Made by a program: the position numbers and the translations under genes. From Natrialba asiatica DSM 12278 (GTDB lineage: Archaea; Halobacteriota; Halobacteria; Halobacteriales; Natrialbaceae): 64,000 nucleotides of DNA. The stretch covers positions 1 through 64,000 of the forward strand of contig NZ_AOIO01000034.1 in assembly GCF_000337555.1 (NCBI RefSeq), in the 5' to 3' direction. Shown here one piece after another: positions 9,541 to 14,001 of the stretch. The notes under the pieces are model-generated. The model was given only the letters and a program-made list of their open reading frames with translations. It had not been told where the DNA came from and did no database searches. Within the stretch, counting starts at the first letter, position 1, and each line of letters begins with the position of its first letter.

Positions 9541-9632
9541 TTGCAGGTACCGACCGTCGCTGGTACCGGTTTCCATCGCTGGCGAACCGGGTCGTTTCAC
9601 CGGTCGAAATCGTCGCACTGCGTGGCGTTCAC

Positions 9633-9656
9633 AAACTCAAAGGGATCTTTGAGTTT
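9633..9656 (+). promoter_or_regulatory. dyad operator, copy 1 (before the winged-helix regulator)
   Basis: A perfect inverted repeat with 10-bp arms (AAACTCAAAG and CTTTGAGTTT) around GGAT. Core: CTCAAA-N6-TTTGAG. It lies just upstream of a TATA-like GAATATAGC (about 9663-9671), which is 30-35 bases before the regulator's ATG. A second copy with the same core and spacing lies before the next gene (10370-10391). No other symmetric copy was noticed in the window. Confidence 0.7.
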
Positions 9657-9701
9657 CACGCACGAATATAGCACCCCGGCGAAAACGGAACTGTAGGTAC
9701 G

Positions 9702-10343
9702 ATGAGCTCTCTCTTTCCGCTGAAACGATCGTCGGCACTGGACGACCGCGAAACCGAGCCGAAACTCGTCGAGTTCACCGAGACGGAAGCCGAGCAGATA
9801 CTGTCATCCGTCTCGTCGACGACGGCGCGGACGATTCTCGCGATGCTCTACGAGGAGCCGCGGACAGCGTCGGATATCGCCGATCGCATGGACGCCTCGG
9901 TGCAGAACGTCAGCTATCATCTCGAGCGCCTCGTCGAAGCGGATCTGATCGTCGTTGCCGGGACGTGGTACTCGAGCCAGGGACGGGAGATGGACGTCTA
10001 CGCGCCGGCGAACGGTCCGCTGGTTCTGTATACCGGGGCCGAGCAGACGACGCCGTCGCTTTCGAGTGCGCTGCAGCGAGTGCTCGGTGCGAGCGTGTTC
10101 GTGGGTCTCGTGAGCGCGCTCGTTCACACGCGGTGGAACGAGCCGCAACCGGCACAGCCGAGGCTTCTCAGTACCGCACAGCCACCCGAGCCGACGCTTC
10201 GCGAGTCGCTTCTCGAGTTCGCAACCGGGCCCGGCGGGTTCGTGCTCGGGGCCGGACTGTTCGCGATCGGTTGTTGGGCGGGCTACTGGTACTGGACGCG
10301 GTATCGACCGGCGACGCGGCGACGTGCCGCCGGCGGCGAGTGA
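9702..10343 (+). CDS. winged-helix (ArsR-like) transcription regulator with two C-terminal membrane segments
   Basis: The 213-aa protein has an ArsR/TrmB-like winged helix at about residues 24-100. ILSSVSSTTARTILAMLYEE is followed by SDIADRMDASVQNVSYHLERL, whose second half is the recognition helix, and a wing (DLIVVAGTWYSSQGREMDVY). Hydrophobic segments at about 126-143 and 178-198 predict two TM helices, so the DNA-binding domain would be tethered at the cytoplasmic face and could sense an envelope or exported signal. Its promoter carries the CTCAAA-N6-TTTGAG dyad, which recurs before the downstream lipoprotein. Autoregulation and control of that gene are the obvious inference. The ligand and the direction of regulation are unknown. 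Confidence 0.85.
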   Translation: MSSLFPLKRSSALDDRETEPKLVEFTETEAEQILSSVSSTTARTILAMLYEEPRTASDIADRMDASVQNVSYHLERLVEADLIVVAGTWYSSQGREMDVYAPANGPLVLYTGAEQTTPSLSSALQRVLGASVFVGLVSALVHTRWNEPQPAQPRLLSTAQPPEPTLRESLLEFATGPGGFVLGAGLFAIGCWAGYWYWTRYRPATRRRAAGGE

Positions 10344-10369
10344 CCGGAGGGGTCCGGGCGACGAACGGG

Positions 10370-10391
10370 ACTCAAAGACGGTTTTGAGTTT
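10370..10391 (+). promoter_or_regulatory. dyad operator, copy 2 (before the lipoprotein gene)
   Basis: ACTCAAA (10370-10376), six bases, then TTTGAGTTT (10383-10391). It has the same half-sites and the same 6-base spacer as the perfect palindrome at 9633-9656, with an unrelated spacer sequence (GACGGT against GGGATC). A TATA-like GGATAGTGG follows directly at about 10393-10401, about 30 bases before the ATG at 10429, so a bound protein would cover the BRE/TATA region. Confidence 0.65.
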
Positions 10392-10428
10392 GGGATAGTG
10401 GGAAGGACCTACCACCGAACGGGACTGT

Positions 10429-11391
10429 ATGGAACGACGAACCGTTCTGGCATCCATCGGTATCGGACTGACGACCGCGGCAGCCGGCTGTCTCTCCGAA
10501 ACGGACGCGACGGCCGATCCGGGCTCGGAGTCGGACTCGGAATCAGGACCCGAAAGCGACGGCCGATCGCTGGCGACGCAGGCGGAGTCCGCGCCCACCG
10601 CCGTCGAGAGCGGGGCGACCGCGGATCGGCTCATCGGTGACGAGACGCTCGCGGACGGCGGCCTTCGGAAGCCGGTGCAGGTCGCCCTCACGAACCGAGC
10701 GAGCGAGACGCACACGCCCGCGCTCGCCATCGAGCGAAACGAAACGACCGTTCTCGAGGAAGCGTTCGAACTCGGCGCGGACGCGGCGGTTCACGTCTCG
10801 CTGACGGACCTCGACGAGTACACCGTTCGCGCGACCCTCCCGGACGCCGAGCAGGAAGAAACGGTCACCGTCGGCCGCGATCAGTTCGACTGTAACGCGA
10901 CGACGGCGACCGTCGCCGTGCGGGACGACGGCACGCTCGAGTCGTCCGTCGTCTCCACGCTCATGGCCTGCCGGGGAGTCGTGACGGCGACCGTCGAACG
11001 CGACGAGACGAACTCGACGACCGTCGGCGCCGTGCCGGGTGCTTCCGAACAGGAATCAGCCGACGCCCGACACGGAATCGTCGTTCACAACCCGACGGCG
11101 CAGACCTGGACGACGCACATTCTGCTCGACGAGTCGTCCGATCCGACCTTCGACGGCGTGTACGCGCTCGAACCGGGTGCGACCGCCGAGATCGAACTCG
11201 CGGAGAGCGGCGAGTACGATCTCGACGTGACCGTCCTCGAAACGGACGCGACCGACCACGAACGCATCGGCGCGACGTCCTTCGATTGTAACGCCTCGAC
11301 GACGCAGGCCGAACTCGACGCGGCGGGAACGCTTGAACTCGCGACGATATCGACGCAAGTGGCGTGCCCTGATGACGAGTTCAGCGAGTAG
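10429..11391 (+). CDS. Tat-exported lipoprotein with two tandem homologous domains
   Basis: The 320-aa protein opens MERRTVLASIGIGLTTAAAGC, a twin-arginine signal with a lipobox Cys at residue 21. It should be folded in the cytoplasm, exported by Tat and lipid-anchored outside. A Ser/Glu/Asp linker follows, then two similar beta-rich domains of about 110 residues (roughly 85-185 and 210-318). Each ends with FDCNA(T/S)T, then GTLE and a second Cys (VVSTLMAC and ISTQVAC), suggesting a disulfide or metal pair in each repeat. No enzyme motif is seen; a binding or sensing role is a guess. Its promoter carries the same operator as the regulator upstream, and a small membrane-protein gene follows after 25 bases, probably co-transcribed. 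Confidence 0.82.
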   Translation: MERRTVLASIGIGLTTAAAGCLSETDATADPGSESDSESGPESDGRSLATQAESAPTAVESGATADRLIGDETLADGGLRKPVQVALTNRASETHTPALAIERNETTVLEEAFELGADAAVHVSLTDLDEYTVRATLPDAEQEETVTVGRDQFDCNATTATVAVRDDGTLESSVVSTLMACRGVVTATVERDETNSTTVGAVPGASEQESADARHGIVVHNPTAQTWTTHILLDESSDPTFDGVYALEPGATAEIELAESGEYDLDVTVLETDATDHERIGATSFDCNASTTQAELDAAGTLELATISTQVACPDDEFSE

Positions 11392-11402
11392 CGTGGCCCG
11401 GG

Positions 11403-11409
11403 GGAGGTG
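11403..11409 (+). promoter_or_regulatory. strong Shine-Dalgarno site before the small membrane-protein gene
   Basis: GGAGGTG ends 7 bases before the ATG at 11417. Most genes here look leaderless, so a strong ribosome binding site in the 25-base gap after the lipoprotein stop supports both co-transcription and the reality of the small downstream ORF. Confidence 0.6.
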
Positions 11410-11416
11410 GTAATCG

Positions 11417-11695
11417 ATGTCGGCTCCCGTCGCACCAACGGATCGGTCCGGTGGGAAGCGGCTGCAGGAAACTGCCGTCGCCGGTGTGCGTGCGATTGCG
11501 TTTTGGATCGCGGTCGTGCTGCCGGCCGCGTACCTGCCGGTGCTGTCTACGCTGCTGTTGCCGGTAGCTCCGACGGCTGTACCGCTCGATCCGTTCTTCG
11601 CGCTGGTCGCGTTGCTCGCGGTACACGGGAGCTGCGTGCTTCTCGGACACGAGCACGCGCCCGGGTACGAGCGACGCGTCTCGTCCGTCCGTTGA
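11417..11695 (+). CDS. small two-TM membrane protein, function unknown
   Basis: The 92-aa protein has two hydrophobic segments, at about residues 25-48 (AIAFWIAVVLPAAYLPVL) and 56-76 (VPLDPFFALVALLAVHGSC). It ends with a basic/polar tail containing LLGHEHAPGYERR. I do not recognise the family. Evidence for translation is the GGAGGTG Shine-Dalgarno site 7 bases upstream and the 25-base gap after the co-oriented lipoprotein gene. It probably belongs to the same transcription unit and hence to the regulon of the upstream winged-helix protein. Confidence 0.65.
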   Translation: MSAPVAPTDRSGGKRLQETAVAGVRAIAFWIAVVLPAAYLPVLSTLLLPVAPTAVPLDPFFALVALLAVHGSCVLLGHEHAPGYERRVSSVR

Positions 11696-11796
11696 CTCGA
11701 GTTCGTGTCCGTCAGTCGACCGTAGTACGGATAACGAGAGCGTGGTTCACCGGGCTGGTGACTGCAATCGGAGACGGCGAGTCGGTCGGCGAATCC

Positions 11797-12633: not shown

Positions 12634-14001
12634 ATGCCCTCGACACCAGACTACGAGTTCTTACTCGAGTGCGAGAACGTGATCGGCGTCGACTACGACG
12701 AGGACGCGGAGCAACTCACGGTGTTCGTCTCGCAGAAGCGGCCGAAATCGGCGCTCGACGCCGCGGACGACGTGGAAACCCGCCTGGCCGATGCCGGGGA
12801 CGACGTGGACGTGACGGTCGTCGACGCGGGCTACGGCGAGACGCGCGAAGGGTTCGACGCGCTGGATGCGAACACCGGGACGGATGCGGGACCGATCGAA
12901 GCGGTCCCCGAAGCCGCGCCCGGTCGGCAGGACCGCCACCGGCCCGTTCCCGGCGGGGTCAGCGAAATCAACGCTAACTCGACGGCCGCCACCGCCGGCC
13001 CGTATCCGGCCCGCGTCGACGACCCGGAGGCGTCGGCCGCGCGCTGGCGCGAGGACGCGGCCGCAGGCGATCTCGTCCGGTTGGCGAACAACCACACCTA
13101 CGCCCGCTCGAACGCAGCCGAATTCGGCGAGTTGATCCTCCAACCCTCGCCACAGGACGGCGGCACCGCCGACGCCGACGCGGTCGGCGAACTCGTCGGC
13201 TACGTCCCGATCGCGGACGACGGGCGCGTCGACGTCGCCGCCCGCTCGGTCGATCCCGCACGGGAGACGGCGACGTACTACGAACTCGACGAGTCGTGGC
13301 CGACCGGCGTCTACCGGGACGACTACGCCGCTCTCCGGGGCGAAACGGTGACGAAAACGGGGCGCACGTCGGGCGTCACGAGCGCCGAACTCGCGGCCAC
13401 GAGCGCGAGCGTTCGCGTGGACGTCGGCGATCAGGAGCCCGTGTTATTCCGCGAGCAACTCGTCGCCGGCCCCCTGTCGGAACCCGGCGACAGCGGCTCG
13501 CCGGTCTTCCTCGACGACGGCGCGCTCGTCGGCCTGCTCTTTGCCGGCTCGAGCCAACAGACGATCTGCAATCGGATCGCGGCCGTCGAAACTGAACTCG
13601 GCGTCGAGGTGCTGACCGCCGAACCGGACGAGGAATCCGAAGACGGCACCACCCCGGAGCCGACGGCGTCCGTGCCGGTCTACACGACGACGATGGACCA
13701 CACCATCGACGTGGATCTGGCGGTCGAGACGCCGTCACCGACGCTCGACTCCCTCGCGTTCGGCGGCGAAATCCGGTCGGGTGACTCCGTCGACGTGACT
13801 GCCACGATCGCCGCCGCGCCGGGTACCTACTGGCTCGCGATCGATGGAGAACGAACGACAGTGACGGTTCCAGAAACGGAGCGCGAGGAGAACGAAACGG
13901 AGACGGCAACGGCGACGATCACGGTTTCGATACCCGACGAGACCGACGACTCCCTGTCGCTTCGCGTTCGGGGCGGTCCGGTCGGCTCGCTCGACCAGTA
14001 G
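12634..14001 (+). CDS. intracellular trypsin-fold serine protease-like protein (NAL1-like) with C-terminal beta domain
   Basis: The 455-aa protein has no signal peptide or TM segment. The N-terminal block (residues 11-50: LLECENVIGVDYDEDAEQL, VFVSQKRPKSAL, DDVETRL) matches the 'NVVGVG...VFVxxK' preface of bacterial NAL1-like trypsin homologues. A chymotrypsin-fold catalytic set follows: His154 (RLANNHTYARS), Asp200 (GRVDVAARS) and Ser288 (EPGDSGSPVF), with KTGRTSGVTSAEL (241-253), the KxGRTxGxT block of that family. Residues 330 to the end contain a Thr-rich linker and an Ig-like beta domain. All three triad residues appear present, so activity is plausible; the substrate is unknown. Cytoplasmic location is inferred from the missing export signal. 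A CTATAACTA box lies about 32 bases upstream. Confidence 0.75.
   Translation: MPSTPDYEFLLECENVIGVDYDEDAEQLTVFVSQKRPKSALDAADDVETRLADAGDDVDVTVVDAGYGETREGFDALDANTGTDAGPIEAVPEAAPGRQDRHRPVPGGVSEINANSTAATAGPYPARVDDPEASAARWREDAAAGDLVRLANNHTYARSNAAEFGELILQPSPQDGGTADADAVGELVGYVPIADDGRVDVAARSVDPARETATYYELDESWPTGVYRDDYAALRGETVTKTGRTSGVTSAELAATSASVRVDVGDQEPVLFREQLVAGPLSEPGDSGSPVFLDDGALVGLLFAGSSQQTICNRIAAVETELGVEVLTAEPDEESEDGTTPEPTASVPVYTTTMDHTIDVDLAVETPSPTLDSLAFGGEIRSGDSVDVTATIAAAPGTYWLAIDGERTTVTVPETEREENETETATATITVSIPDETDDSLSLRVRGGPVGSLDQ

Follow-up and report, generated by a model that had tools for sequence, protein, structure and literature searches.

Positions 9702-11695 of the analysed window, a 64,000-nucleotide stretch of the genome of Natrialba asiatica DSM 12278, carry three genes in head-to-tail order. 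They encode REG, a winged-helix regulator; LIP, a Tat lipoprotein; and STM, a small two-TM protein. Generic labels such as 'helix-turn-helix domain-containing protein' and 'hypothetical protein' have been applied so far. The locus raises the question of whether these genes form a functional unit and, if so, what REG controls and in which direction. To our knowledge, transcription regulators that work from within the membrane remain little understood, especially in archaea. The features of the locus were as follows.

9541 to 11796, no strand assigned: cassette-bearing stretch, missing between the same two flanking genes in two congeners
9635 to 9654, no strand assigned: operator 1, a perfect 20-bp dyad (ACTCAAA-GGGATC-TTTGAGT) in the REG promoter, from sequence and conserved in REG orthologues
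9665 to 9670, + strand: TATA-like element (AATATA) in the REG promoter, 10 nt downstream of operator 1, from sequence
9702 to 10343, + strand: REG, winged-helix regulator of the PF24267 family with two C-terminal TM helices, from profiles, AF2, hydrophobicity and PDB folds
10370 to 10389, no strand assigned: operator 2, a perfect 20-bp dyad (ACTCAAA-GACGGT-TTTGAGT) in the LIP promoter, from sequence and conserved in relatives
10429 to 11391, + strand: LIP, Tat lipoprotein with two repeated beta-sandwich domains, from alignment, AF2 and PDB matches
11400 to 11409, + strand: Shine-Dalgarno-like GGGGGAGGTG of STM, from sequence
11417 to 11695, + strand: STM, 92-aa two-TM protein, a lineage-specific addition to the cassette, from locus comparison and hydrophobicity

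The three genes were flanked by a MATE transporter on one side and a phosphoribosyltransferase on the other. The nearest named relatives of REG were those of N. aegyptia (97%) and N. taiwanensis (95%). In two congeners (G032 and G164) the flanking genes lay ~100 bp apart without REG, LIP or STM, which constitutes an empty site. A trypsin-like protein beside the phosphoribosyltransferase (window 12634-14001) was likewise missing from both genomes, a second indel within 5 kb.

Architecture of the encoded proteins

REG is a protein of 213 aa whose winged helix-turn-helix (wHTH) matched Pfam HTH_20 (E 3.8e-14). The AF2 model placed the wHTH at residues 27-102 and two helices at 120-145 and 177-211, in line with hydrophobicity maxima at 123-141 and 173-191. 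Both hydrophobic helices were kept in the alignment, and confidence for the TM part of the model was moderate (pLDDT ~76, pTM 0.46). The helices are linked by a short predicted outside segment containing a conserved GPGG. REG was assigned to PF24267 (HVO_1552_C) with 27.5 bits against a curated cut-off of 27, and 25 of the 27 scanned members (REG and its relatives) matched this family at E<=0.001. PF24267 is broad and rich in paralogues, with several members per haloarchaeal genome, and comprises ArsR-like HTH proteins with two C-terminal TMs, as in REG; the REG subfamily is set apart from the rest by its short loop, LIP neighbour and dyad operator. PDB fold matches of REG were ArsR folds, with Phr-type Pyrococcus regulators among the best. 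Assignment as an ArsR/SmtB metal sensor was not supported, the NCBIfam metalloregulator model giving 34.3 bits against a cut-off of 55 and the metal-binding Cys of such sensors being missing, as the sole Cys of REG is located in TM2. In the four genomes of genus g29 (G277, G218, G030, G295) ~8 REG-like genes per genome were found, many of them short, which marks an expansion of the regulator family in this lineage.

LIP (320 aa) starts with a Tat signal and lipobox (MERR...AAAGC), of which M1, R3, R4, G20 and C21 were invariant in 34 relatives, strongly indicating Tat export and lipid anchoring on the outside. Its AF2 model (pLDDT 83) consisted of two tandem beta-sandwiches, each repeat carrying F-x-C-N ... 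S-T-x-M-A-C, and the conserved Cys pair of each domain (C155/C181 and C287/C313) probably forms a disulphide. PDB neighbours of the model were extracellular domains of peptide transporters and transthyretin-like domains, and LIP is predicted to contain two Ig/transthyretin-like domains. A META/HslJ fold was also considered. LIP reached 25.2 bits against the META domain PF03724 (curated cut-off 24) and 32/34 LIPs matched at E<=0.1, in LIP with a partial alignment covering 33/109 positions; no META structure was recovered for LIP by profile or among the fold matches listed. The motif is real in the sequence, yet the model matches Ig/transthyretin sandwiches, and this fold was rejected. Identity as a defence system was dropped after LIP and STM gave no match in PADLOC and the Csa3/CARF matches of REG were confined to its HTH. 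Phage origin was dropped after searches of phage records returned no LIP match.

STM begins 25 bp past the LIP stop codon with GGGGGAGGTGG upstream, and has two TM maxima at KD 2.0. It belongs to a two-TM family that has no Pfam model and relatives in 262/294 genomes. The original prediction, of a winged-helix protein with two C-terminal TM segments, an adjacent Tat-exported two-domain lipoprotein and, 25 bases later behind a Shine-Dalgarno site, a 92-aa two-TM protein, was confirmed by the profile (HTH_20), Tat motif and lipobox, AF2 and hydrophobicity results, for each protein and for their adjacency.

Operators and promoters

The two dyads share the consensus ACTCAAA-N6-TTTGAGT, the first lying 47 bp upstream of the ATG of REG and the second 39 bp upstream of that of LIP. 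About 0.47 sites with at most 3 mismatches were expected in 64 kb; two were found, both perfect, and no further perfect copy occurred anywhere in the 4.4-Mb genome. Non-redundant REG promoters (n = 23) were aligned on the dyad and contained a TATA consensus 12 nt downstream, from which the dyad is taken to end just upstream of the expected BRE. LIP promoters carried a poor 'ATA' (consensus cgATAc) at the same position, and no recognisable TATA was found in the LIP promoter of the window. The dyad thus ends ~10-12 nt upstream of TATA and overlaps neither the TATA box nor the start site.

The dyad was scored over 14 positions within 150 bp upstream of each gene. Scores of at least 11/14 were obtained for 27/29 REG promoters and 34/38 LIP promoters (61/67) against 5/482 neighbouring genes of the same loci, and scores of at least 12/14 for 54/67 against 0/482; these counts take related genomes as separate cases and overstate the number of independent events. 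The distance from dyad to start was 39-47 bp in REG orthologues and 39-42 bp in LIP relatives. In a second sample, containing partly the same species, the dyad was present in 30/30 REG orthologues at 10-14/14, truncated genes included. Among close REG paralogues it reached 13/14 in 1/49 (L161). Extra LIP copies without an adjacent REG retained the dyad, several of them in genomes where REG is located elsewhere (G041, G115, G245, G076); in G041 REG is chromosomal and LIP is on a plasmid contig. The dyad does not mark the LIP family at large, most single-domain LIP relatives having none, with possible exceptions at 40-41 bp in L063, L229 and L233.

Outside REG and LIP, 18 exact sites were counted in 31 genomes with REG and 21 in 30 genomes without it. 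A broad regulon was excluded for exact sites, which occur at a background rate in both sets, and because of this equal rarity the regulon looks private. The simplest reading of these sequences is that REG binds the dyad and would control itself, LIP and little else.

Conservation and probable mobility of the gene pair

Genes were called with a simple script in a sample of 294 Halobacteria. Relatives of LIP at full length were found to co-locate with close relatives of REG, adjacent REG-LIP pairs occurring in ~30 of the genomes. Related pairs are present in several Haloferax species. In 40 loci that were laid out, LIP directly followed REG in most, at a spacing of 41-200 bp (mostly ~71-72 bp), with unrelated genes on both sides; no conserved functional neighbours were found across the loci. 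Pairwise distances of REG and LIP were correlated with a Mantel r of 0.96 (24 pairs), a value reached in 0/5000 permutations, and with 0.93 in the core group of 17. Some copies of REG and LIP were plasmid-borne. From the paired loci, unrelated flanks, matched divergence, empty site and plasmid copies we conclude that the cassette is inherited as a unit and probably moves as one.

STM followed LIP only in three Natrialba loci and in three genomes of a second genus in the family (g5), where the LIP-STM loci had no REG; it was accordingly excluded as a core part. Judged by gene order, the conserved unit is REG with LIP, and STM is an add-on in two genera. LIP also occurred as an orphan in genomes without REG (G018 and the three g5 genomes), so LIP has no strict need of REG.

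Identical operators at the same place before REG and LIP had been predicted, and the exact dyads at 47 and 39 bp from the ATG agree with this. Conservation of the operator upstream of orthologues held for these two of the three genes. The predicted co-occurrence stood in part: REG and LIP were conserved neighbours and STM fell outside the core.

Proposed circuit and alternative explanations

The model we favour, with a probability of about 0.6, is an autoregulated membrane-held activator with a dedicated lipoprotein partner. REG would be a transmembrane one-component regulator, its wHTH in the cytoplasm and its two TM helices joined by a short loop outside, and a REG dimer would bind the dyad next to the BRE/TATA of both promoters. 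Both promoters would most likely be activated, giving positive autoregulation and induction of LIP. LIP, exported by Tat and lipid-anchored outside, would be dedicated to REG as its partner or effector, and would probably signal back to TM2 and the loop of REG in the way that the exported partners of bacterial co-component systems do. The pair would travel among haloarchaea as a unit, with STM acquired in Natrialba. Binding of the dyad by a REG dimer at both promoters is strongly supported by the promoter comparisons, and a REG-LIP circuit is well supported by the same comparisons and gene order. We infer the sign, the signal and any REG-LIP contact. The outside part of REG leaves no room for an ordinary sensor domain, which points to a signal from the state of the membrane or from LIP; as modelled, the absence of a classical sensor domain, with only a short loop outside, also counts against the model. 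From topology, an envelope signal is a reasonable guess.

REG might instead be a tethered repressor that keeps both promoters silent and, once freed by an envelope signal, allows LIP to be made. REG resembles the ArsR family in fold and HTH, with the Phr-type Pyrococcus matches described above. ArsR-type proteins are commonly repressors. A dyad beside the BRE/TATA can also keep out TFB/TBP, so the site could serve a repressor too, the sign being read from site geometry. Against repression, the operator is clear of the TATA box and start site and occupies the place used by GvpE, and the poor TATA of the LIP promoter is as expected for an activated promoter. The 20-nt GvpE activator sites adjoin the BRE, and this closeness is essential (PMC4390858). 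GvpE sites are likewise two-part and BRE-adjacent and occur at two gas-vesicle promoters, one being that of the regulator's own operon; GvpE differs from REG as a soluble leucine-zipper-like protein, and its sequence and site are unrelated to REG and the dyad (PMC4390858). Because the dyad adjoins the expected BRE/TATA as haloarchaeal activator sites do, and from the weak LIP TATA, activation is considerably preferred and a repressor is considered unlikely. The originally predicted derepression of the LIP gene is doubtful for the same reason, the operator lying just upstream of the BRE/TATA region where characterised haloarchaeal activators bind (PMC4390858).

A serious competitor, at somewhat less than an even chance, has LIP as a plain effector without REG contact, for example a lipoprotein protecting the surface or conferring immunity against viruses, halocins or membrane damage, with REG itself sensing the membrane. 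Like accessory fitness or immunity genes, the pair is patchily distributed, with random flanks and some copies on plasmids, orphan LIPs exist, and Ig/transthyretin-like domains are generic binding modules, whereas the empty PADLOC and phage searches, the very tight co-divergence of REG and LIP and a divergently arranged pair (L222, below), which suggests more than a promoter target, speak against it. The narrower proposal that LIP binds the REG loop/TM2 (GPGG) and sets an activator controlling only the two genes, as a horizontally spreading archaeal co-component system, is held tentatively. It is very improbable that another chromosomal regulator binds the dyad and that REG is a mere neighbour: the LIPs of g5 and G018 keep a dyad-like site where no close REG was found, but the site is present before every REG orthologue of the second sample, almost no paralogue in the same genomes or in related ones carries it, and genomes without REG show no excess of it.

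Comparison with known systems

Transmembrane transcription regulators (TTRs) have been surveyed in bacteria and archaea (PMC10269533). They are defined by a DNA-binding domain and one or more TM regions in one chain without phosphorelay, and REG, with its HTH_20 match and two hydrophobic helices, fits this definition. It is distinguished by the ArsR-like character of its wHTH, by having two TMs and by an apparently private regulon of two promoters. The main text of the survey contains no haloarchaeal cassette of the REG-LIP kind, nor the words 'haloarchaea' and 'ArsR' (PMC10269533). Membrane-bound activators are known in Sulfolobus: ArnR and ArnR1 of S. acidocaldarius are described as archaeal membrane-bound one-component activators with an N-terminal HTH, like REG (PMC6396743). 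They differ in driving archaellum and pilus genes and in being phosphorylated by ArnC, and that description mentions no lipoprotein partner (PMC6396743).

By analogy, the nearest functional model for REG-LIP is provided by the ToxR/ToxS and VtrA/VtrC cassettes, likewise fast-evolving two-gene units of a membrane-tethered wHTH regulator and a downstream exported membrane partner (PMC9214523). REG has such a neighbour: the next gene on the same strand encodes an exported, membrane-anchored protein. ToxS has a fold related to HslJ/META (PMC13042144), and LIP resembles it in its META-like motif. Unlike ToxS, LIP is a lipoprotein whose gene has a promoter and operator to itself and lies 41-200 bp from REG, not in an overlapping or co-transcribed operon, and the PDB matches and predicted fold of LIP are Ig/transthyretin-like sandwiches, not a lipocalin/HslJ barrel. 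The outside loop of REG is tiny and the host archaeal, unlike those of the ToxR/VtrA systems. With a separate promoter and a different fold, REG-LIP was not filed as a member of the ToxR/ToxS type, and is possibly an archaeal analogue. Were the co-component reading true, it would be a minimal sense-and-respond cassette, parallel to ToxR/ToxS yet independent.

No paper naming the REG-LIP module was found in the open-licence literature, the scope of the search. The module looks like an undescribed, self-contained sensing circuit, which haloarchaea carry and seem to exchange. REG comes with a putative dedicated exported partner, with a 20-bp operator that dozens of natural instances define, and with a regulon of apparently two promoters; as genetically tractable haloarchaea are among the hosts, transcription control from the membrane, and its sign, can be put to a direct test. 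Generic gene labels are replaced by a defined functional unit.

Related loci

At L222 (G283:C1:871000-874500), in one genome, transcription of a distant REG paralogue and of a single-domain LIP relative diverges from the intergenic region that they share, which suggests that the partnership of regulator and LIP predates the cassette and involves more than a common promoter. REG was truncated to 82 aa in Halosimplex pelagicum (L107) and 106 aa in Halostagnicola sp. A56 (L133) with the upstream dyad intact, a probable recent decay of the regulator. At L161, upstream of 2284, a similar palindrome AGTCAAACGGCTCTTTGAGT was located 45 bp before the paralogue start, with weaker forms in L122 and L148; other members of the REG family may accordingly be autoregulated through related sites. 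A further wHTH/two-TM PF24267 paralogue at L086 (G000:C21, ~273,500-277,300), in the same genome, adjoins a subtilisin-like S8 protease whose N-terminus bears a hydrophobic segment.
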